From contig JAHLTZ010000016.1 of NCBI GenBank assembly GCA_025786725.1, positions 310,001 through 374,000 on the forward strand: a stretch of 64,000 nucleotides of DNA, written 5' to 3'. The DNA comes from Syncephalis fuscata (Eukaryota; Zoopagomycota; Zoopagomycetes; Zoopagales; Piptocephalidaceae). Shown piece by piece: positions 7,491-43,964 of this stretch. The notes below the pieces were generated by a model. The model did no database searches and had not been told where the DNA came from. It worked only from the letters and a program-made list of their open reading frames with translations. Position numbers and translations under genes: made by a program. Within the stretch, counting starts at the first letter, position 1. Each line of letters starts with the position of its first letter.

Positions 7491-9350
7491 TTACTGGAGA
7501 TGAGCGTGGTGATGATGATGGTGGTGAACGGTAGTGGTGGTGGTGGTCATTGGCTGTAGCATAGTTGGCAGTTTACGGGCGCTGCTAGGCATAATAGGGA
7601 AGTTGGCCTGAGATAATGGATTGTAAGCAGGATCGCATTTGCCATAGATCATAGGCGATGGCATATTTGTAGAGGAGAAAAGAGGATGATCGAAGCTATT
7701 GGCGGAGACGGTGCTGCCAAGGCTTTTCACGCTAACGTTATCGCTATCGTCCGAGTCGGATGACGACGACATAGCAATCTTGCCTTCCAAGAGTGGCAGC
7801 CAATGGGAGACATTATCAAATGCGTTGTCACCTTGGACTAGTTCGGAAAAGCTGGCACCATCACCACCATTAGCGTTCATAGTATTATTAGCAACCATTG
7901 ATGGGCGTTGTGCTTGATAATAATGATCATCCATACTTGGACTTTGGGTTTCAGTGTCTCGAAGACCTGTATAAATAAAGTAGTATAATATAAATAAAAT
8001 AATTGTTAGCATAATAAACATATAAATTAATAATAACAAAATAGTGCAAAACAACCAACCAACCAAACAAACAAACAAACAAACAAACAAAACAAACACG
8101 CACACACACAACGCTTATCGCCAATATTTAGCAAAAAGACACGTACGGGGATAAAAGCGGCAGTCCAAGTTAGCGGGACAAACGCGCATACTTGCCTTGC
8201 GGATTGACCAATATATGAGCCATTGGGTCCGTTGGGCAAGCTACCGGTGCACTGACGGGCGCCTCGTTAAGGTGTGGTATGGGAAGGCAAGTGAGCCAGG
8301 GTGATTGACAAATTGTTGATAGCCATGGCCAGGCTGATTCATCGACGAAAAGTCGGGTGACATGGCAAAGTGGCCAGCGGCTTCCATCATCGTCATTAAC
8401 GAGCTACGGTGGTCATTCATGCCATTAGGGGCCATTGGGGCGCTAATGGGGGATGCCGCCGATACAGCTGTAAAGGCATAGTCCGATAGTGCTGGCGGTG
8501 GGGCCAATGGACCAGAGAAGGTTGGTGGAGCAGAGTGGGTAAATGAATACTCTGGCATAGCATCACACGGCTGTGAAGGAGGAATGCAGCTAAAGTCGTC
8601 CTCTGGAATGCTTAAACGGCGTTCACGTTCCTCCTTAACGCGCGATGCAGTCGAACGACCAGCCCGTGGGCGGAGTGGAGTAGCATCAGGGTGCTTACGC
8701 GCTAGATGCTTCTTTTGGTCGCCGCGGTGTTTGAATCGTTCATCACAAAGCTATAAAAGGCAATAATAAATACACGTGAATTAGCACCATTGACTAACAA
8801 ATAAAGGCAAATCATATGAATGCAAATGATTATGGATGTGTGTACACAAACACGAGTCAAATGCCAATGTACACAGCCCACATAGGCATTGCTGTGCCAA
8901 AATGGTCATTGCTGTATGAATACTTACCTCACAGCCAAAGGGGCGCCAGTCTAAATGTTTCTTCATGTGCGACTTTAGTCGGAAAAGACTTGGTCGAACT
9001 TCATCGCAGCCGACCCAACGGCAGGTAAGGCCAGAGGCACTGGGCTCAGCACTACCTACAGCTTGCAAGCGAGACGACAAATGCTCAGTTTCAATATGTC
9101 TCCAAATTGCATCGCCAGTAGCAAAGGCGTGATCGCAAAGCATGCAATCCTCCCAACGGCAAAAGAACGGGCCGAGTAGACGAGCATTATTGCCATTACG
9201 GCTAGTCGTGATACTGCCACGACGAATAGGGCCGGCAATACGACCGTTCATGGACGGCGATGCGCTCGGCGACAACGACGGGCTGTTATGGAAGGGAAGC
9301 ATACCGTTTTCAGCTACCGACGACAAGGAGAAGTGGGCAAAATTGTCCAT
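7491..9350 (-). CDS. PacC-like triple C2H2 zinc-finger protein 3
   Basis: Exons 9350-8928, 8750-8196 and 7966-7491. Fingers: finger 1 CRWEDC...H, finger 2 CRWVGC...H with SHMKKH, finger 3 CELCDERFKHRGDQKKHLARKH split by intron 1 after Cys-Glu. The start is ATG 9350 (MDNFAHF). Exon 2 needs one added base between about 8260 and 8305. Upstream, one frame gives HPGSLAFP and then runs into a stop at 8241. Downstream, the frame shifted by one gives NEAPVSAPVACPTDPMAHI, clearly better coding. In that frame the exon ends CGCAAG|GCAAGT, a consensus GC-AG donor, and its phase fits exon 3 (484 residues once the base is added). The tail is Ser/Pro-rich, with an acidic Ser/Asp patch and a His run near the end. 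Likely a nuclear DNA-binding regulator. Confidence 0.8.
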
Positions 9351-10097
9351 TATTAAGTTAAACAAGTATAATGCAATTGACGACTGAACAAAGAAGTAAA
9401 AGCGTGCTTGCGTGTTTCAGCTACAGAGTAAAGCGGAATGCAGTTTGAAAAGTACAATAACAAAATGGTTTCACGCGAAGCCTAGATTATTATTGGTGTT
9501 GATATTGATGTGGTGGGTTGGATTGTTAATAAAGCAGTAGCAGCAGGAAAAAGAATATCACCGTAAAAACGTTAAGACAAGCAAATCAATCAAACAATTC
9601 GTGATATCTTTGAATGAATAGAATCGTAGAAATAGCAAGTATGTAGAGTGTGAAAGTGAGTAGCGTAGCGTTATTGGCAAGAATGTGACCAGCAACGTAA
9701 AGATCAAAGCGTAAATCAACTAAAACGAACTATCCAATAAATTGGTTCGTTAAAGACAGTGAAAAAAAGGATAGAGCGTTGGTAGAAGAAGTAGAAGATA
9801 GTAACGATGCTGTTTGCAATAGTAGTAGCGCAGCAGCGGTTGGTGTTTTGAAGCGTAAAAGAAAGAAGTAAGCACGAGCGATAAGAGGATGGGGCGGAAA
9901 ACTAAGGCGACAAGCAAGAATGGTGCAGAGCGTGACTGTACGACAAGTGCTGGTAAAAATAGCTAACACCGAAAGATATAACAATGTGTGTGTTGTTATG
10001 TGGTTTAGAATGAGTGGAAAAAAATGGTTTCAAGAGATATGGAACGTAGACGGAAATAAATGAGCTGATAGGAGGAGTGGTGTGTGATGGCAGAGTT

Positions 10098-14656: not shown

Positions 14657-15614
14657 ATGAATAGCGAATTTTCTAACGCAATGATTCAAAAGTCGCTTGA
14701 TACGACGACAGAGTCGGTTGATTCGATACTGAACAACGTACTGTATTGGTGCGCGGTAGGCTACTTCCCCGCACAGTTAGAAGACTTGACTAATCAACCA
14801 CCTGTGGAACCCATTTCGCCAAATGGTTCGCCGCTATTGCAACAGCAGCAATTCGATGGACATGCTTATGAACATTTGCACTCACATTCACATTCGCATC
14901 CATCTTGCGAGCCAGCAGCCGTCAAACTGTCGCCAACCATGCCACCGTCGCCGCTATCGATGCCTGCTTCGCCGCTGACCATGAATACCGCTTGTATTAG
15001 CTTGCCAATGATTAAGCCAATTGCGGCAGGTGTACTGCCCAGTCCACAGTCGTCGCTATGCATGGAGCAACACTGCTACTCTATCGAACATTTGGCGCCT
15101 CAATCGCTCGAAATGCAGCCATCGCTTAGTTTCGACACGACAATCTCATCCGCATCCTCGTCTTGCGACTATGATACACCAAAATTCTCTGTACAGCATC
15201 GGTGTTTATGGGACGGATGTGGCCGCGAGTTCGACGTGCAGACGGACTTGCTTCGGCATTTGAGCGAAGATCATGTTGGTCGCAGCCTGCGCGGTAATTT
15301 GTGCCTTACTTGCCGTTGGCCCGGATGCTCACGTGTGGCAAAGAAGAGAGATCACATGGTCTCTCACCTAAAAAGCCATGTTCCCTTTTGGCCATTTACC
15401 TGCAAGGTGGGTTTATTTACTTTCTCAAAATGGCTATCTGCAATTAATTTGCCGACTTGCGGCCTTTTGGAAAATAACAATTATCATCATCAATACACAA
15501 TACTAATTTTTCTTTTTTGTTTGCTTCAAATAGTATTGCGGTAACCGGTTTAAGCACGCCACTGGATTGAATCGTCATATCAATCGTCATGAAATGCGTG
15601 GAGAAACTCAATAA
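14657..15614 (+). CDS. PacC/Rim101-type transcription factor 4 (canonical fingers, short)
   Basis: Two exons, 14657-15406 and 15534-15614, 276 residues. The first ATG sits in a run of ATC repeats. Residues about 175-260 form a canonical PacC triple finger. Finger 1 is CLWDGCGREFDVQTDLLRH. Next comes the family signature [12 protein letters not shown] joining fingers 1 and 2. Finger 2 is CRWPGC with KKRDHMVSHLKSH. Finger 3 is TCK|YCGNRFKHATGLNRH, split by the intron. The stop falls only ten residues after the last finger, so this copy lacks the long C-terminal region that carries the processing and regulatory segments in classical PacC. The N-terminal half is Ser/Pro/His-rich. If it binds PacC-type sites it might act as a constitutive form or competitor; that is inference. 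Confidence 0.88.
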
Positions 15615-21950: not shown

Positions 21951-24484
21951 TAACTTTTAAGGCCGCGCTTGATCTTACGGGCTTTCTTTAGCTCACTATA
22001 CCTATATTTATAGTAGTGCAATATGTGAACTAGACGATAACCAGGACTGATGATGCTTTTGTTCGATCCACACACAAACACAACCACTTACATACACATA
22101 CACACCGACACATACATATTTACATACACATAGATGGATAGATGGGGTATAAGATATGGATCAAACATCAGTAACACGGTTAACATTTAATGATATCGTA
22201 ATTAAGCGCGCGCACCTATTTAAACGTGTATGTGTACTTTTCGTGACATGTTATTGATCGTCCAATCGACGGATTTCTATACCATTTCTCTCTCACTCTC
22301 TCACTTATTATTACTATTTTTCTTTTTACCTTTTTGGCCTTTAGGCAAAGCAACGAACCCAGTGCGGCTATGCTTATGTCGAAGAGGCGAGTAAAGACGC
22401 TACGTCTCTCTTTGAGCATGTCGAATGGGGCTGTACCGATCGAAAGCATCTACGACGCATTTTATTTTTTATTAATACTAAAGAAATAACTAAAGTTAGT
22501 CCATCATATTATACGGTATAATAAATATGACGTTTACATAATAACGTTGCAAATGTAACTTTTATTAATACAAGTATCTATAATATAATTATTACTATTA
22601 TACACCATTATATACTATACTGAATACAATTTATTTATTATATGATTCAATACACTTTACTCGGTCTACTTATTGCAGCATATACATTATAGCGTCGACA
22701 CCACTTATCTTATTCTTCCCGTTGTATATTCAATATATTGTATGTCATTTTATTATATGCTAGTTACATAATATTTAGAGCTGCTATTAATTTGACTCTA
22801 TATCTATTAGTAATAAATGAAATAATATATATATAATATTGCCATAATACAAATTAAATAACTAAATAAAGCATCGCACATAGAAAGATTGTAAATAGAC
22901 TAATCATTACCAAAATAAAAGATCGTCATGCTGTTATATAGTAGCAGTGTTTTTACGCAACAGCTACTAACCAGGTGCAACAACCTTATTATGAATAAGC
23001 TTTAATAGCATATAAATGATATTATTGCTGACTCCTTAATTATATGTATAAAAATATAATGATAAAACACAATAAATAGAATAGACAGTACGAGTATAGT
23101 GCGTGTATAATATCGTTTATTGGCTATATTCTTAGCATATTTTTACTGAAAATAACAGCTATTGCATTTTATGTTGAATTATGGTCGAAGATATGCGTGG
23201 CAGTATAGACATATACGTCTATCATAGAGTGAATAACATATGGTCAAAATATCTCATTCTATATTACTAAAAATATGACGCACAAAAAATAATGATTTTT
23301 AAAGTTTTAGCCCATAGTCAAGGATCCAGTATAAATGAATGGATAAAGCTAAAGAACGTCATAGCATACGCACAGTTTACATTACATCATGTTTCCAGTA
23401 ATGATCATATTAGCATATAGTAATAGTAGCTCTGTATATTTAGATAGAAAACTTTGCATGGCACACACTATAGATAACATGCTGGTAGGTGTACAACCTT
23501 ACAATAAATGATGTGTGGACTAGCACTTACACGCATGATTATAACCGGTTGATATACCATGCATTGCTCCATTCCATTCAAAACTGATTACGTTTGGTGG
23601 AACTGTCTGCGGTGTGGCCCAATATTGGTATACTGCGCTATATACAATTCGGACTATTTACATTATTTTAAGACTGAGCAGTTGGCTACATTTGTGCTTG
23701 ATCGCAATAGTTTATTATAAAGCTACATATATTGGGCGGCCAGCAATTAACATTAGCAGCCAATTAAAAATGGTTTTTATATTGATTGTTTGTAGTGTTG
23801 TAATAAAACAAACAGCTCATTCTCTAAGCAATAGCCACTATGTCGGATTAAATGAGCATGTGAACCAACCAGCGTAGTTTCATAATCAAGGAACTACGGC
23901 CAGTCTGCGTGCGACAGTACGTACCTGTAAAAAGCACAAGTTCAATGCACTAGTGCTGCTACTGTACCGTTTTTATGTGCTGTTGGAAATACTTGCAGAT
24001 ATTAGGGATTGGGATTGTTAGTGAAAGCAACTGCAAAGATATAGCGATGCATCATCACTACTTTTGTAGAATCAATGGATTCAGTTTGCACCATATGGTT
24101 CAAATTGTGTAGCATCATTGTAAAAATTAATAGATAAATTTCTATCGCATGTGTACTGGCTAATTAATATTGCCGAGCAGATTGAAGTAAAGACTGGGCA
24201 GCATGATACCACATCGTTGATATGTTGGTATACGAATGCTTCAAATCACCATGTGGATGTGCTGTTATTGGTTTACATTGTACATCAATGTTATAGACCA
24301 TACAATACAGCATGTTGGTATCTTAGTATAATCACAAATTTAAATAGCTTATAAAATACACACAGATAGCCAGCAGTACCACTATTTTACTCTACTTTCT
24401 GCCAAATATCTACTACTACCTACTTTGCACCAAACATACTCTGTAGTTCACTCTACTTGTTTGTCTTAACAAATTAATATCATC
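21951..24484. other. AT-rich intergenic region
   Basis: About 2.5 kb, very AT-rich from 22500 onward. It contains one GC-richer exon-like island at 22345-22521 preceded by a pyrimidine tract and TTTAG (see findings), and the promoter of the micro-exon gene near its right end. No other supportable gene. Confidence 0.5.
24350..24357 (+). promoter_or_regulatory. TATA box of the secreted-peptide gene
   Basis: TATAAAAT, 128 bases before the ATG at 24485, followed by a CT/ACT-rich leader without internal ATG in the last 100 bases. One of the clearer TATA boxes I noticed in the window and consistent with strong or inducible expression. Confidence 0.6.
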
Positions 24485-25316
24485 ATGAGGCTTTCCCTTG
24501 CTGTCGTCTGCATCCTCGTCGTGGCCTTTGTAGTCAATACAGCCATGGTGGACGCTAACCCAAATAGAATTCGTCGTGGTATGTTACAATCAGAATAAAT
24601 ATGTTAATAATGTACCAGCTAACATTATGGTTGGACTAATGATGGTACTAGCTCGTAAGTCTTAATTATGAACTATTGCCCCAAAACTTACTGTATACTT
24701 TTATATGCATAATAAACGCGATAAATATATGTAAATAGTCGGTAAGTTTAATTATACATAATTATTGGCGTGCTAATTGATTTTGCCTATTAATTTAAAA
24801 TGGGGTGAACCAGTGCCATTGATTAGAAGTAAGTTTAGTACAAGATTGCAAGTCAAATACTACACTGAGAGTGCTAATATGCTGAATTTCCATCAATAGG
24901 AGGTAGACTAGACTAGAAATAATTAGTTGCTTATTTAACTAATAGTGTTTATATTTAATAATCTGCATCAACAGCTGGTAAGTAGCGTTGTATATTAGTT
25001 GATTATATATTAAACATGCAATACACATTATTTATACTTAATAATCTGTGTTAATAGATTGTAAGTGGTATTGTATAATAATTAGCTATCAGCTAAATGT
25101 ATATTGTGTATTGTTTTGTACTTAATAATCTGCACCAACAGTTGGTAGGTAGTATTGTATATTAATTGTTTTATACATTAATTATATGACATATGATGTA
25201 TATATTTATAAATATAGCATAACCGGCACTTCCAAGATGTTGACATAGGTATTGTGTTTAAATTTCTAGTGCAATACACTTTAGGTATATATTCAGTAAA
25301 GAACTGGGCCATTTGA
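24485..25316 (+). CDS. Putative micro-exon gene encoding a small secreted peptide precursor
   Basis: Exon 1 (24485-24578) encodes a 31-residue start. It has a hydrophobic signal peptide (LAVVCILVVAFVV) ending near NTA/VDA, then NPNRIRR, and stops in phase 1 at GTATGT. It is followed by minimal exons, each flanked by AG and a GT donor: CTC 24652-24654, TCG 24739-24741, a 15-nt exon 24814-24828, GAG 24900-24902, CTG 24975-24977, ATT 25058-25060, TTG 25142-25144, then a last exon from 25218. All introns are 71-84 nt. Joined, this adds ALVPLIRRADFA and a stop at 25220-25222, a 43-residue prepropeptide with two dibasic (Kex2-type) sites. Using AG at 24825-24826 instead makes the third exon 2 nt (AA), and the last exon then stays open to 25316 (70 residues). 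I recognise no homologue. The exon array is strongly supported by spacing; the exact isoform is not. Confidence 0.62.
24950..25165 (+). repeat. Three tandem copies of an intron-end / 3-nt exon / intron-start unit
   Basis: Around the CTG, ATT and TTG exons the same block recurs with period 83-84: TTAATAATCTGCACCAACAG-like acceptor, three bases, then GTAAGTAGTATTGTATATTA-like donor side. The copies differ at a few positions. Direct evidence that the array grew by duplication of whole splice units. Confidence 0.85.
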
Positions 25317-26865
25317 CAACTATTGCTCAGACTATTTATATATCAAGTTCCATTCAATGTTCGGTTTGTTCAACTTTAATCAATGGCGCCATTATATTTC
25401 CAGCAAGTCTGTATCCAGTTGTGCCTATCTAACTATGCAGAATTGTAGTAATAAACATATGGTTCCATTTTAAATATATGCAATTAAATGATTGTAGTTA
25501 TACTTATGTTTAATTTCCATCCAACCATTAGCAAGTATTAATCAAGTAAACGTATTAATAGCAGATTTTGCAAGTGCATCACATTAACTACAAGCATAGC
25601 CTAATACAATATAGCAATAATGTTGTTAATATAGCAATTTGCGTGATATTATGTTAAACTAGTATAGTAATAATTAAAAAACATGATAAATGAGAATAAA
25701 TAGCACATATTATTGAGGCGAATAAATGGCGTAAAAATGGTTAACACTTCCTAATCAATATACAGCTATTCTTTAATATAAGCAATATTGGTGAATTAAC
25801 ACATGTAAATTGTTTTTTTTAAATCAATACTAAACTTTTTTTACTTATACTGGGAATGTAGCTACAAGATGCTATAAATAATAAGTAGTTAGAGAAAGTG
25901 CGTGGATATTTGCAATGAAATACGATAAGCACATATATGTATATGAATAAGTAAACCAAATTGGAATTTACAATAAATTAAAATGCATAACAAACACGGT
26001 TGGCAATAAATAAGTAACTTTTATCAACAGTTTATGACTAGTAATCAAATTAAGCAAATGTCATCAAGATAATCATTTAATTATATTCAATAAAACAAAG
26101 ACTTGTAATTAAATATTAATAATATATACATTTCAATAATTAATTAATTTTAATTAGGTTTTTATAATGCATAGTTTATATAAAAAATTTAAAGAAACGT
26201 AGACCAAAAAACAAATACACGGCGAATGCGCAGCACCCACCGTTGATTATGGCCAAGCGTAAACACAAACAACTACAATTAACGTAGTGTGTCTTTTTTG
26301 CTAAAATGAAAATAATAGGCAGCACACAATAATAACAATGACAATGATGATGATAATGCGATTATGATGATGATGATGATGATGTAATGTATGGTTGATA
26401 AGGGCAATATAAATGAGGATGTGGTATAGTAGTATGGTCAATGCTTATGTACGATAATAGACCACGCATAAGGCGTAGCCAAAAAGAAAACAACTATAAA
26501 AGAAAAGAAAAGAAAATGGTCAAAAGATCGGCGTAACAACGTTAAATGAAAACACGGAAAACAAAATGTAAGTCAAATAAATCAAGAAAATGGTGAACCA
26601 CCACCACAACATCGATCAGTAGCAAGAATTGGACCTTAGAAAAGGTTAAAATAGAGAGACATGGCAACAAGTACCTCTCATACTTTAAAAGATCATCGCA
26701 ATCCAAAAGGGCGACGCGTTAAATACCTTTTCTCCTACCGCATGTTGGTTCTGGCCATCTTGATTGGATGCAACATCAATTATAAATTACTATCTACATC
26801 ATTTTCTATAATTAATTCTATTGAATTAAAAATAAAATTGCATCTAAAACAACATGTTACACAAT
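25317..26865. other. AT-rich intergenic region
   Basis: Holds the 3' end of the micro-exon gene (AATAAA at about 25450) and the 3' region of the minus-strand zinc-finger gene. (GAT)n-like tract at about 26345-26385. No gene seen. Confidence 0.5.
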
Positions 26866-28620
26866 TTAATAGTGCATATGATGCTGTGACTGCGGATGTA
26901 AATGCTGCTGCTGCTGCTGCTGTTGTTGTTGTTGATGATGATGTAAATGATAATGATGAAGACCAGTTGGGGAAGCAGGATGGATAGAACCATAGGCAGC
27001 ACTAGTGGTAGGCGTAATAGGTCCGTTCATAGTCGTCGACAATCTATCCGATGCACTGGTAGACCAGTGACGTGTATGAGACGGCTCATAGTGATGGGTA
27101 GCTGCTGATGGTGATGATGCCGAGGGCAATGGTAAATAGCTAGCTGAAGATGAGGCAGAACTATTTGCCGTCAATGATGGCGGTGGTAACGAGGGAATAA
27201 AGCCATGGTGTGATGGTCGATGATGAAGCATTGGCTGCGGACATGAATTTGATCGCTGATGCTGAGATGATACTGATCCGGTAGCAGCAATAGGTGAAAT
27301 AAGACCCGATGACATCGTCGTTTGATGGCCGTGTGGTGAAGGCAACGTGAGAGTGGATGGTGGATAATGGGCTGATACCGGTGTGGGTACTGGTGCTGGC
27401 AATGTGTGTCCTATGGGCATTACAGATCGGGTGCCAATGTTGCCATTATTATTAATAGTGCTGTTGTTCATTGATATCATCGCATGGGGATGCGAATTTA
27501 CCGCGGGAAGTATTGTGCCGGGTAGCGGAGACACCATACCCGATAATTCTAATCCCAGCTGATTGCTTTCAAGTTCACGTCGTTCCATATGTTTCCGTTC
27601 ATGTTTCTTTAAATCTTGGCGGCGTTTATAGCGCTTATCACACACGCGGCATCGTAGTGGCGTTAATGGTACATGAACTCGTAAATGAGATGTAATATGG
27701 TCTCGTTTGTTGGTCGATGTTTGACAGTCCTCCCATCGACAGGTTAGACAAAGATTACCACGAGCATGTCGTCCTACGTGATCATCACACAGATGCTGGT
27801 AAAGTGTCTCAGGCCCATGAAAGGTACGTGTACATTGGCGCCATCGACAATGATACAAATGCGACTGTCCGCCTTGACTACTGCAATTGTTGCTGTTGCT
27901 GCTACTATTGATGGGTGATGTACCACTAGATTCTAATAAAATAGTAGATGTTGTACCATGATTATGATTCATTGCAGAAGCAGATAACATTGAAGTAGAA
28001 TATGGCAGCTGTTGTTGTTGTTGTTGTTGCTGTCGAGCTGCTGTTGGATGATGGACAGCATTTAGGCCATTCGACATCACAAGAACCGGTGATGCAGATG
28101 CCGTACGATTGGGTGTGCTATGATAGCTATAGTTACTAGCACTTGGTAGGCTGTCTGCCGATGGATAAGGCGAGTGGGCCAATGATGGATGCGGCTCCAA
28201 CAGGGTGGACAATGAAGGTAAAGGTGGATGCTGCATTGGATGAACAGGTGACGGTGTAGAAGCATAAAAAGGGCCCGTTCTAATTGACAGAGGCGGCGGC
28301 GTTGGTGGTGTATGCGGTGTGGCAGCTGTACCCGTAGCAACGGTCCTTGCCGATACAGCAGTGGTATTTGTCGCTATAGCAGGTGGTGAAACTGAACCCA
28401 TTCGATGCTCCAAATGACTAGTAAACATCAATGGCGGTGACGGCGATGCAGATGATACTGAAGATGCCGATTTACCGCTATTGTGTTGCTGATAATAGGA
28501 CTGAAGTGGCGGTGACAATTGTCGATTGCACGGAATAGGTAAACACTTTGAAAACGCAAGTTCAGTAGGAACAACCTGCGGTTCAATAATGTGGACGGGC
28601 GACGACGACGAATACGACAT
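26866..28620 (-). CDS. pacC: PacC/Rim101 transcription factor (most canonical member)
   Basis: Single uninterrupted exon, 584 residues, ATG at 28620. The triple finger at about residues 250-345 is classical PacC. Finger 1 is [19 protein letters not shown]. Then follows [15 protein letters not shown]. Finger 2 is CRWEDC with [13 protein letters not shown]. Finger 3 is [21 protein letters not shown]. The N-terminal 250 residues are Ser/Pro/Thr-rich with a short Gln run; the C-terminus is Pro/Ser-rich and ends in Gln and His runs. In fungi PacC/Rim101 is the zinc-finger regulator of ambient-pH genes, binding GCCARG-type sites after pathway-controlled processing in ascomycetes. I see no clear YPXL-type signalling box, so the processing mechanism here is open. 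Unlike the other six paralogues it has no intron, so it could be a retrocopy or have lost its introns. Confidence 0.9.
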
Positions 28621-35672: not shown

Positions 35673-37041
35673 TTAAGGATGGGCATTGGCACTAGGCTCA
35701 TTTGAGCATGATCGTGGCCGAATGACAGGCAATACAGAGGTAGAACAAGCACGTCGACGTACATTACCATTGCCATTAGCACTAGCACTAGTATTGTACG
35801 GATGATGTACACTCTTGCGTAACAGTGCCCGTTGAGGAGAAAGTCGCGTCGATTTAGCACGTGGTGGTACTACTGGTGTCATACCATGACTATGACCACC
35901 AACATTGTTAATACTATTATACGAACTATAGTTATAATGATTAAATGCTGGGGAAAGTGTCGTCATGGATGGATGATAGACACGCGCCGCTACACTCACC
36001 GCCGAATAATTAGGCGCTGAATGAGGTCGCGATAAAGGCAAATGACTATAGGCCAGCTAGACATTAACGATTCATAACTGGTATGACTATAGCTATCATG
36101 ATCATCGCTATTATCGTTATTATTGAGACTATTCATAGAAGAATAGCAAACACCGCCACTACCACTACTTGATAGTGTGATAGGCTGTACTGAATTACGA
36201 GACATCAATGGAGTATGCATAGGCGCAGACATGCCAACTCGCATCATACCTGACGATAAATCAGCATTGGTGTATTGTTGTGTGGCCGCCACATTAAGGA
36301 ATTGGTGATATACTTCGTGGGCCGTTGGTTGCGGTAAATAGCCATCAGGGCCAGCACCGAGCATTGCCGGATCGATCATGTCGCCGGTAGCTGACGAGGG
36401 GAAAATGGCTTGGGTATCAGCTAGAGGTTAAATAGCGTTAGTATACAGCATATAAAGTTGCGTAAATATAACTGCTTACCATTATATTCACTAGAGGCGC
36501 TAGTGGTCAGGCCAGGCGACATGCTCGCCATAGGAATGTAGTGCTGTGAGTGCATGCCCGGTGTGGACATAGGCGACGGTGGCAAAGCATAAGCAGGCGA
36601 TAAACTGGCATCGACTGTGCCATACGGTAACGGCATGGATGCAAAATGACCAACTCCCATTACGTGATCGTAATCGGTACTGGGAGGCGATTGCATTTTG
36701 TCACGATGTGTATGCTCGTGACGCTTCAAGTCTGATTGGTGCTTGAATCGCGCGTCACATAATCCACAGCCATACGGCTTATAAGAGAGATGGCTTTTAA
36801 TATGTGAAATTAAATGATCACGCTTTGACTTTGAAATGGTACAATCGGCCCATTGACACTGAAGACATAGATTGCCGGTAGCATTGCGACCGACATGATC
36901 CTCCGTAACATGAATGAACAGGTCTTCGGCGTTTATCACCTGCTTGCCACAGCCGCGCCATAAACACACCTGTGGCCCATCACTTATTGCACCATCCGAC
37001 AAAGCTGGACTGCCCATAGATAATTCAAATGATGAAGACAT
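35673..37041 (-). CDS. PacC/Rim101-type zinc-finger protein 7
   Basis: Exon 1 is 37041-36480 (ATG 37041, phase 1) and exon 2 begins at 36420. Residues about 25-120 carry a canonical PacC triple finger: CLWRGCGKQVINAEDLFIH, DHVGRNATGNLCLQC, CQWADC with KRDHLISHIKSH, and CGLCDARFKHQSDLKRHEHTH. This copy has no intron inside finger 3. Near 36050-36150 the frame changes. The upstream frame stays open through an Asn/Asp/Ser-rich stretch, while the convincing downstream frame (LAYSHLPLSRPHSAPNYS) starts just after TCTAG at 36056. Either a 95-nt intron with a weak donor (GGT|GTTTGC, 36151-36057) is removed, giving 404 residues, or one base is missing and the protein is 436 residues. The tail is Ser/Pro/Asn-rich and ends with basic RRRACSTS and RPRSCSNEP. 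Confidence 0.82.
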
Positions 37042-38733
37042 GGTCAGCAATTCAAACTAGTTCTATGGAGTAAAAGATATAAAACGACAAAGTAAATAAA
37101 ATCAATTAATCAATAGCAACTAGGTTGTTGGATAGTGTGAAGCACAGTTAAATGGCAAATGCGCGTGTGTAAATAAGGATGTGTAGAAACAAAATCAATG
37201 CGGTATTGGCCATTCGTATTTATAGAATTTAGAGGCTATCAATAGATACGCCTTTTTGATGTTACAGCTACGTCCACATTAACTCTATTCGCACTAAGCC
37301 ACAGCTACCAGTTAGAAAGTTCACTTTAGTCGTACGAATAAACGGTCAAGGCGCGTCAATAAACCGTCAATAGACCCTTGTTGGCTAGAAGATAGATCCA
37401 CCACTACTAAGCCATATCATACCATGTCATCGGTCATTTGCCATCACATCATGCATCCCACCCCATTCGCTCTAGCTCTATGATTTCCCATTAGCAACGC
37501 GGTGTGCTCGGCTCAGTTAATTATTTTAAAAAACCGGTCACCAAGCACATGTGGTTGACCACTACGCTATGGTACAAGTATCGCTCTAATGTCGCAAAGT
37601 GGATGATCAAGGAGAGTGTGTGCGTGCGTGCGTGCGTGTATGAGAGAAGGGTAAGGGTCGCCTTCTTTGGCCAACAGTGATGCACGCACTCAACGCGTGT
37701 CTCCTTCGCTCAGTTCGCCTACAGCGAGAAGGCGGCCTGTTTATTACTGCTTGGCACCACACATAGCAGAAAGTTCTACCTATAGATGACAAACCAGGGA
37801 AATAAACCAAGTCTGCTTTAGACAGCACGAAACATACATCCGTATCCACCCCGTACTCGTTAATTCACAAGTGCACATGCGTTCATACTGGCAATGACGA
37901 TAGCTTAATAAACGTACACCACCAGCAAAGGTCCAAGCAATTCGGTGTTTGTCAATTACCGCAAACCCAAGCAATAGGCAAAGCCTTGTAGTTTAATATC
38001 TGAGGCTGTTTTAGTTGCTACTAGTTAGCATAGGCTGTATTTGGAAACACTAATCAATAACAATAAACGTATATACTATGTTAGTAGAAGTCAGATGAGT
38101 AAGAGTGAAATGGGGAAATGGTAGGTGAATTGACATCATTGTCGTCACCATTATAATGACTAATGCCGATTATATTAACATTAATAAAACACTACGGTTA
38201 TTACAATTATTGTATTGATTTATCAACATTGTTATCAACATTGTTGCTATGACTTTTACCACTATTACTATCGTGATCAATAGTATTATGATTATTGTTA
38301 TCGTTATTACCAAAATTAATCATTTCAAACATGTGCTGTCCTAAGAATATGGCAGCTATATTTAGATGTTTGTATATTACATCACCTTTGCCGAATAACT
38401 CAAGGCTTCTAGTTTATTATTAGAATAGTCTTGGTCAGTCGTCCTCTCCCCTCAAACATCATCAAATCATTACTATTGACACTTAGATGATACACCAACT
38501 CATAGACAAGGCGACAAGCAATAGGGTCAAATGGTGCGTTGAGCTATTAACATGTTTGTTTACACATAGTAAACAGGGCTATACCAAGCAATAACATGTA
38601 TTGTTTCACAACCTTTTACAAGTAAAAAAATAACATCGTTATGTAACTTTTGTATAGATGTCACACATTTCCCACCATAAACACGTTGAACAGTACGCGA
38701 GTGTAAGTGTTACAATTTCTTGATTGGTTTGTT
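37042..38733. other. Intergenic region upstream of zinc-finger gene 7
   Basis: About 1.7 kb that should contain the promoter of the gene at 37041 and the 3' region of the ASH2-like gene. Short GTGC repeats at 37617-37638. No other gene seen. Confidence 0.5.
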
Positions 38734-42876: not shown

Positions 42877-43964
42877 TCACTGGCCACAAACAGTAGTAGA
42901 AGCGGCTATACCTACTGGTTCACCTTTTGAGCATTGCGAGTTTACAGCAGGCTTTGGTGATTGCACTGAGATGTCTGGAAGTGTATCAGTGGTAAGCGAT
43001 GGCGCAGTACCAGATAGACCAGAAGCAGCCATTTGAATATTTTGAATTTGTTGAATTTGTTGCACTGGCATATTGACAGCTAGTTCAGTAGATGGGCAAC
43101 CAGTAGTCGATGCACAGGCAGTCGATTGTGATTTGGGTGCGATTATAACTGACTGAGATATGTCAGGCTGTGGATATTCGTTATTTGGCTTGCTTTTAAT
43201 AACAGCCGGCATATTGGGCTTGGTGGGAAACGTATTTTTAGTCATATCTGTGCCATTATTATTATTATTATTATTGTCCTCGTCGCCATCATCATTACCA
43301 TCATCGTCACCGGAAGTAATATCAACTGTGGGTTGACACATCTGTGTTGATAGTTCTCCGTTGCAATGAATCAAAATAGGCTGCTCTGTTGTTGCAGCCA
43401 TACTTGTCGCGTCATTATCCGGTGTCTAATCGAATAAATGGTTATTAAATAAATAAATGTATATATTTCCGCTTACTGTATCTGGCATTTCCATAGTCGC
43501 TTGGCGTGCCATTAACCAACGATGATGTGGGCGATGCGGATGATGTGGGCGATGCGGACGATGTGGGCGATGCGGACGATGTGGGCGATGTGGACGGTGA
43601 GGGTGGTAAGGATAATATGGACGACGAGGGGACGGTCATATGAAGAATATTGACGGCGATTAAGACGGTAACGAGTTGGAGGTATAAGTGCGCATTGATT
43701 ATCCATAAGCCAATGGCCTTCGGTGCATTGTAGACAAGATGCTGGTGGGATCATAGTAACAGACCATTGCCAACGAGGCATGGCAAAATCTGGATTATGT
43801 CGAATAGCGCAGGCTAGATTAATTTTTGCTGGAATAAAGGTAGTGATGGCAGTCTCGGATGGTATAGCCATAATATGTGCTGCTCCATTGGCTACTTTAA
43901 TGACATAGGACAGTCCTGCCAAAGTAATGGCTAGAATAACAGTAGAATAATGGTGTATCGCCAT
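42877..43964 (-). CDS. Hypothetical secreted or membrane-anchored protein with HRP repeats
   Basis: Exon 1 is 43964-43477 and exon 2 is 43425-42877, separated by a 51-nt intron. The ATG at 43964 opens a hydrophobic N-terminal segment (STVILAITLAGLSYVIKVANG), a signal peptide or membrane anchor. A Cys-containing block follows (CLQCTEGHWLMDNQC). One base is missing near 43631-43640; after it, the frame that fits intron phase reads RRPYYPYHPHRPHRPH..., encoded by four 18-nt tandem repeats. Exon 2 begins TPDNDATSMAATTEQ and contains a Gly/Asp/Asn-rich acidic run. With the added base the ORF is 345 residues. No family recognised. The Cys block followed by His/Arg/Pro repeats suggests a metal- or wall-associated extracellular domain, but that is a guess. 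Confidence 0.6.
43521..43592. repeat. 18-nt tandem repeat x4 inside a coding exon
   Basis: Four near-identical units at 43521, 43539, 43557 and 43575 (consensus GAYGATGTGGGCGATGCG on the plus strand). Because the length is a multiple of three, copy number can vary without breaking the frame. All three minus-strand frames are open across it. Confidence 0.9.

Follow-up and report, generated by a model that had tools for sequence, protein, structure and literature searches.

The micro-exon genes (MEGs) of Schistosoma, as described in excerpts of PMC10526429, number 35, with 10-20 exons per gene and introns of 0.1-5 kb. Their exons measure 6-81 bp in the text of that source (3-81 in its abstract), mostly 15 bp, their lengths are mostly multiples of three, and automatic annotation struggles with them (PMC10526429). 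The aphid bicycle genes form a large family of putative effectors whose members evolve fast and contain many micro-exons; according to the excerpted text, almost all of their internal exons start at codon position 2, and a gene has about 17 exons on average (PMC9168663). Even a single 3-nt exon can be included by spliceosomes, for example in Drosophila homothorax (PMC7392893, in excerpt). Among fungi, the Xlr2 transcription factor gene of Trichoderma contains a functional 20-nt micro-exon that acts as a switch, and the excerpted 2024 paper, which cites fission yeast work, reports none earlier in filamentous fungi (PMC11121469). Within the open-access PMC literature searched, as represented by its excerpts, neither a tandem array of 3-nt exons nor any such report from Syncephalis was found.

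The locus considered here lies in a window of 64,000 nt (the whole stretch of DNA analysed) from Syncephalis fuscata, a fungus of the Zoopagales. A KH-domain ORF in the window matches an S. fuscata model with 100% identity across 95% of its length. A sequence-only reading had proposed a fungal micro-exon gene with a signal-peptide-like first exon, and the analysis supports it. The positions of the 94-nt exon 1 and of the six 3-nt exons (CTC, TCG, GAG, CTG, ATT, and TTG) are exact on re-reading, the eight intron lengths (73, 84, 72, 71, 72, 80, 81, and 73 nt) are as claimed, and an exact GTAAGT does follow four of the six 3-nt exons (Table 1). The single gene that had been seen is real, but it is one short member of a far larger family. 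This is very probably a convergent and extreme micro-exon family, in which secreted pre-pro-peptides would be encoded by tandem units, each made of an intron of about 79 nt and a 3-nt exon. At the level of sequence, this reading is carried by the architecture, the reading frame, conserved splice sites, whole-unit insertions and deletions, the match to intronless relatives, and conserved flanks.

Table 1. Features of the micro-exon gene and of neighbouring Zap1-type open reading frames, in window positions.
Feature	Position	Strand	Remarks
TATAAAA, possible core promoter element	24350..24356	+	found by pattern; putative function
Exon 1, 94 nt	24485..24578	+	codes MRLSLAVVCILVVAFVVNTAMVDANPNRIRR and the first base of the following codon
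Donor of exon 1, GTATGT	24579
Micro-exon 1, CTC	24652..24654	+	TAG-CTC-GTAAGT; in the chain matching contiguous coding DNA of intronless L021
Micro-exon 2, TCG	24739..24741	+	TAG-TCG-GTAAGT; in the chain matching intronless L021
15-nt exon, TGCCATTGATTAGAA	24814..24828	+	most of pro-segment VPLIR; paralog exon CGCCATTGGCTAAAA; PLAKR in intronless L021
Micro-exon 3, GAG	24900..24902	+	completes the second dibasic RR; homology
Micro-exon 4, CTG	24975..24977	+	CAG-CTG-GTAAGT
Intron after CTG	24978..25057		end-to-end match to other-loci intron profile, E=3.7e-12
Micro-exon 5, ATT	25058..25060	+	TAG-ATT-GTAAGT
Intron after ATT	25061..25141		end-to-end match to other-loci intron profile, E=8.9e-12
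Micro-exon 6, TTG	25142..25144	+	CAG-TTG-GTAGGT
Intron after TTG, matched part	25145..25209		profile match starts at first intron base, E=1.3e-4
Terminal exon, coding part CA-TAA	25218..25222	+	completes GCA, then stop
3'UTR	25223..25455	+	common to array and intronless relatives; probable end, from AATAAA at 25450
Zap1-type ORF	8781..9365	-	below cut-off
Zap1-type ORF	14657..15544	+	above cut-off
Zap1-type ORF	26866..28620	-	below cut-off
Zap1-type ORF	36421..37050	-	below cut-off

The peptide of exon 1 has a hydrophobic, signal-peptide-like stretch (judged by eye) and ends with a dibasic RR. Joined, the window exons read MRLSLAVVCILVVAFVVNTAMVDANPNRIRRALVPLIRRADFA up to the stop, giving the product MRLSLAVVCILVVAFVVNTAMVDANPNRIRR-ALVPLIRR-ADFA, in which only four residues follow the second RR, a point that counts against the main reading. 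Part of the window pattern is accounted for by a local tandem duplication (three copies of 57 nt at spacings of 83 and 84 nt). The exon between TCG and GAG had been given as either 15 or 2 nt. The longer version stands, as paralog L018 carries CGCCATTGGCTAAAA at this place and lacks an inner AG, and the 2-nt version is ruled out by the paralogs. A frame-blind splice model, which scores splice sites only, bridged the 15-nt and GAG exons by one 233-nt intron, and both were placed by homology instead. The donor after GAG (GTAGAC) is the weakest site in the chain; its counterpart in L018 is GTAAGC. The intron matches in Table 1 were obtained with a profile built from other loci only, the window introns being left out.

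The exon-1 peptide has at least 150 matches in the S. fuscata genome, the window's own included, a count that is a lower bound because 150 of the 318 first-look candidates were scored. Likewise, the DNA of the window region has at least 138 genome matches (40 of 399 candidates scored), many of them being the repeated intron-exon unit over several kilobases, while array segments of two other loci, L034 and L044, find 247 and 134 matches, respectively. The loci read number 43, namely that of the window, two search loci, and 40 retrieved by their genomic place, most of them from the upper end of the exon-1 match list. Tandem AG-NNN-GTAAGT arrays with adjacent units are present in 33 of them, and nine are intronless relatives; the last, L020, has exon 1 and its donor, and no array unit in the stretch read. 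A contig-end stretch, L050, contains the same intronless type as L051. The smallest arrays have a few units and the largest 50 or more. For example, L026 has 53 modelled internal exons between exon 1 and the stop, 51 of them of 3 nt, and the longest array read (L044) comprises 73 strict units across about 7 kb. A Pfam scan of nine family sequences gave nothing above the cut-off, no relative of the family was found in the viral contigs scanned, and the family profile matches 13 entries in the protein database, all from S. fuscata. Family members in opposite orientation on one contig were also observed (C57:418105(+)/475408(-), C1:609265(+)/576389(-), and C57:190145(+)/232681(-)), two of the three pairs having near-equal scores, which suggests large inverted duplications or assembly palindromes.

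The repeated pattern is far beyond chance. The sequence-only reading had put the expected number of AG-N3-GTAAGT sites at about 0.01; in first-order Markov shuffles of the region the mean is 0.029, and four or more such sites together are never reached in 5000 runs (maximum two). Across 41 sequences, AG-N3-GT[AG][AT]GT occurs 626 times, compared to 9.65 ± 2.7 in Markov shuffles, and chance origin of the pattern is thereby ruled out. When spacer lengths from 0 to 15 nt are tested, only 15 nt, besides 3 nt, is clearly over background (36 vs. 8.4), in part because of the conserved pro-segment exon; smaller excesses are seen at 2 nt (23 vs. 9.8), 6 nt (20 vs. 9.4), and 12 nt (16 vs. 8.6). The frame-blind model, applied to 27 loci, chained 26 (L056 lacks a terminal acceptor), with L024 and L025 (three strict units each) left out and L008, L041, L044, and L056 chained separately with a free end. 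In these 26 loci, 588 of the 615 internal exons are exactly 3 nt long, and the introns of up to 97 nt have a median length of 79 nt.

The reading frame indicates whether these 3-nt units are coding. A junction codon, which joins the final base of one 3-nt exon to the leading two bases of its successor, can be read from adjacent strict units independently of any model. Its 520 occurrences in 33 loci include no stop, whereas 2000 within-locus shuffles of exon order give 17.7 ± 3.4 (range 8-31); after removal of nine near-duplicate loci (L007, L025, L030, L033, L036, L037, L040, L047, and L054), there are no stops in 437 codons from 24 loci, vs. 14.1 ± 3.0. An earlier frame test on modelled chains gave 0 of 402 in 25 loci. 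In the other junction-spanning frame, shifted by one, 50 stops are found, like the 48.4 of shuffled arrays. Stop counts alone leave the phase unfixed, because few stops (1 of 622, with 8.6 expected from base composition) are also met when every 3-nt exon is taken as a complete codon. The phase is fixed by exon 1, the terminal exon, and codon composition. The codon-position composition of the junction frame lies at a distance of 0.53 from that of the intronless relatives (1.31 and 1.43 for the other frames); compared with ordinary window ORFs, the fit is less clear (0.90, vs. 0.98 and 1.20). Cys codons number 38 in the junction frame, compared to 22.2 in 2000 shuffles (maximum 35).

The modelled chains carry this frame from end to end in most cases. 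The terminal exon begins AG-NN-TAA in 24 of the 26 chained loci and runs into the 3'UTR common to the intronless relatives; in the other two (L034 and L048), the stop comes four codons further on. Frame is held from exon 1 to the terminal exon in 19 of the 26 chains, 18 of which are open up to that exon (L033 keeps the frame sum and has an earlier stop). Twelve of these 18 stop at the terminal-exon TAA (for L034 and L048, four codons beyond that point), and the remaining six (L007, L035, L036, L037, L046, and L049) one codon sooner, at the terminal-exon junction. In the seven chains that lose the frame (L017, L019, L031, L032, L040, L054, and L055), which count against the main reading, the model placed exons of other lengths, or exon 1 is damaged (L040 and L054). 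With the junction codons free of stops, the terminal exon in frame, and the same sequence contiguous in an intronless relative, the claim that the 3-nt units are exons is upheld and, as far as genomic DNA can tell, these units are coding exons.

The arrays could instead be non-coding tandem repeats inside one large intron, with exon 1 spliced directly to the terminal exon. The unit is indeed a tandem repeat, and the direct junction is also in frame (G-CA TAA), but a non-coding repeat has no cause to keep 520 junction codons free of stops, and the arrays match contiguous coding DNA of intronless relatives and spell Cys-rich peptides like theirs. Frame, codon composition, and the intronless comparison rule this repeat out for practical purposes, and its probability is put at very little. 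A similarly low standing, only slightly higher, is given to the idea that the loci are dead or dying, the arrays having once been translated and now decaying. A few copies do have a damaged exon 1 (L040, L054, and L008, the last two with a stop inside exon 1 as modelled); with arrays downstream, these three are likely pseudogenes. Furthermore, L044 contains one 2-nt unit in the 3' part of its array (TAATAG-AG-GTAAGT), where the frame would shift, and the array-less exon 1 of L020 also fits decay. Against general decay, the absence of junction stops in 33 loci, divergent ones included, requires continued selection, and the upstream and 3'UTR sequences are conserved across the family. For instance, the 120 nt upstream of the window ATG have a mean identity of 0.69 (range 0.56-0.84) to 41 paralogs, compared to 0.51 (maximum 0.57) for random segments.

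The intronless relatives offer another view of the coding sequence. Intronless L021 codes a peptide with ...RR AVEPLAKR..., and the array loci L018 and L026 code AVAPLAKR through exons of 3, 3, 15, and 3 nt. The joined window exons agree with contiguous L021 DNA at 19 of 25 bases, whereas the 16 alignments shifted by 1-8 bases either way reach at most 11 of 25; agreement is 22 of 25 with L018 and 21 of 25 with L026. As a side observation, C1 carries both L020 and L021, some 27 kb from each other and nearly the same in the sequence upstream, and the pair may represent a snapshot of intron loss. Other intronless relatives code small Cys-rich peptides, e.g., L052 (GDRCTDCIDACTATKKNAVVCLNQCTNQKKCPA), and the Cys-rich array peptides of L049 (DRCKDCGGCRHQQGPDHSDRPSCKQQCKNIGEC) and L048 (DRLCVEKCKKNWMGPEPVACRFECGVPNPQS) are alike. 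Nine array peptides were compared with six intronless ones (54 comparisons, with 1000 exon shuffles each), and four of the nine (L049, L048, L045, and L034) resemble Cys-rich intronless relatives beyond the exon-shuffled controls. L049 scores above all 1000 shuffles against L052 and L053; L048 is reached by at most 5 of 1000 against L039, L051, L052, and L053; and, against L039, L051, and L052, no more than 9 of 1000 shuffles reach the score of L045 and no more than 6 that of L034. The peptides of L035, L037, L022, L023, and L026 show no strong excess over shuffled controls against the six intronless peptides.

Recursive splice sites look like an AG closely followed by a GT. The AG-NNN-GT units could, on that likeness, be ratchet (recursive) splicing points, i.e., stepping stones whose three bases would be absent from the mRNA; RS-exons are the subject of PMC6224609, which was available in excerpt. 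Bases that are always discarded would obey no codon frame and resemble no coding DNA, and at about 79 nt the introns are short enough to be spliced without stepping stones, which leaves this explanation next to no probability.

Comparison of paralogs shows how the arrays vary. In 14 pairs, some sharing a locus, introns differ at 1798 of 18,147 positions (9.9%) and exon bases at 200 of 717 (27.9%), an exon excess that is not taken as selection because pairs share loci and misaligned units can inflate the figure. The choice of units by strict sites fixes four of the nine splice columns, and divergence was counted on the remaining five, which differ at 29 of 1195 positions (2.4%). In six close, non-overlapping pairs, neither the exons (7/210, vs. 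104/5653 for introns, p=0.12) nor the free splice columns (2/350, p=0.09) depart significantly. Positive selection on the exons is, therefore, not claimed. Eight paralog alignments contain 23 gaps of at least 40 nt, 13 of which equal one, two, or three units (79-82, 165-167, or 244-247 nt), along with gaps of other sizes. Single residues, therefore, appear to be gained or lost together with introns.

How the introns arose is a separate matter. Introner-type mobile introns are near-identical and dispersed among unrelated genes, and bursts of such elements could have been inserted, codon by codon, into an intronless ancestor. This proposal, which concerns origin and not function, draws on the profile shared by introns of different loci and on the existence of intronless relatives. 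It is nevertheless considered improbable: across the rest of the 64-kb window, the intron profile has no convincing match (best E=1.8), and the whole-unit gaps, together with near-identical units that adjoin each other in some arrays, fit tandem duplication.

For the favoured reading, that of secreted pre-pro-peptides built from tandem units, we infer splicing order, export, processing, and a role in parasitism as follows. Exon 1 would code for a signal peptide and a short pro-region ending at RR, and halt one base into a codon. Each 3-nt exon would complete one codon with two bases and open the next with one, so that each unit adds one residue and leaves the frame unchanged, and the terminal exon would contribute two bases and then a TAA, with the 3'UTR after it. 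The introns would be excised singly by ordinary intron definition, which is proposed because 3 nt is less than exon definition requires. The peptide would then be exported and probably cut at the dibasic RR and KR by a Kex2-type protease. As similar introns flank the units, duplication or loss of a unit would add or remove exactly one amino acid. The genus Syncephalis parasitises other fungi, and the products are most likely secreted peptides that act in the encounter with these hosts.

An alternative with the same gene structure is that the arrays serve combinatorial alternative splicing, any subset of 3-nt exons being skippable and each gene yielding many peptides. All 3-nt exons are in the same phase, so skipping would keep the frame, and schistosome micro-exon genes are discussed in such terms in excerpts of PMC10526429. 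The Cys spacing of some array peptides is like that of the intronless relatives, which suggests selection on full-length products, and combinatorial splicing is held as a tentative option, with clearly less than an even chance. Roughly balanced odds can be given to a broader proposal, namely that this is a new architecture in which the mature product is coded with one codon per exon, the arrays acting as a codon-level diversity generator for secreted peptides directed against host fungi, and the intronless members being mRNA-derived copies of spliced array transcripts. If true, intron-flanked codon cassettes, in arrays of 50 or more, could be copied, dropped, or skipped with the frame intact.

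The deposited gene models of S. fuscata bear on why such arrays escaped notice. In one model (P0126), 26 residues fall within L022 intron sequence, and another (P0122) resembles intron sequence of several loci; that two of the models checked contain intron sequence suggests why the arrays were missed. Of the 13 protein-database models, three (P0121, P0125, and P0132) are intronless ORFs among the loci read, P0131 is the counterpart of L043, with a single small intron modelled close to its end, and the other seven have no placement among the loci read. The public models were rejected as transcript evidence, none of them reproducing an array chain in the loci read. Secreted-peptide repertoires of early-diverging fungi may be undercounted, because two deposited models from array loci contain intron sequence.

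Two other features of the window were observed. Four separate ORFs within 29 kb match the Zap1 zinc finger 1 model (Pfam PF21816; Table 1), and they possibly form a local cluster of related regulators. At 43524-43596, within a 150-aa ORF, 4.1 copies of an 18-bp unit (96% match) give an IAHIVR-type repeat.

Should the main reading hold, the lower limit of exon size would cease to be a mere oddity and become a principle of gene construction. Dozens of 3-nt exons would have to be joined in sequence by the spliceosome within one short transcript, and a single organism would then allow direct tests of intron definition, of the order of splicing, and of its fidelity. The family would also open a route for protein evolution, by single-residue insertion or deletion through intron recombination.

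The schistosome comparison made at the outset is apt as an analogy and fails as a statement of membership. Schistosoma MEGs code for secreted proteins, with a signal peptide and then many micro-exons, in a parasite, and the S. fuscata family is inferred to do likewise; in both, coding sequence lies mostly in micro-exons whose lengths are multiples of three. The MEG description (exons of 6-81 bp, mostly 15, and introns of 0.1-5 kb) sets the two apart: here, unlike in MEGs, 588 of 615 internal exons are 3 nt, the longest arrays have more than 50 of them, the introns of about 79 nt stand in tandem, and at least 150 exon-1 matches are counted, compared to 35 MEG genes. Bicycle proteins carry CYC motifs. 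Like bicycle genes, the S. fuscata arrays keep all micro-exons in one phase, with internal exons starting at codon position 2 (no stops in 520 junction codons), but bicycle genes are animal genes, and no tandem 3-nt unit is described for them in the excerpts of PMC9168663. The 3-nt micro-exons of animals and plants, as the excerpted sources present them, are isolated in ordinary genes and do not form the mature product from tandem arrays. Taken with trematodes and aphids, the present family points to a convergent use of micro-exons for secreted proteins, now in a fungus.
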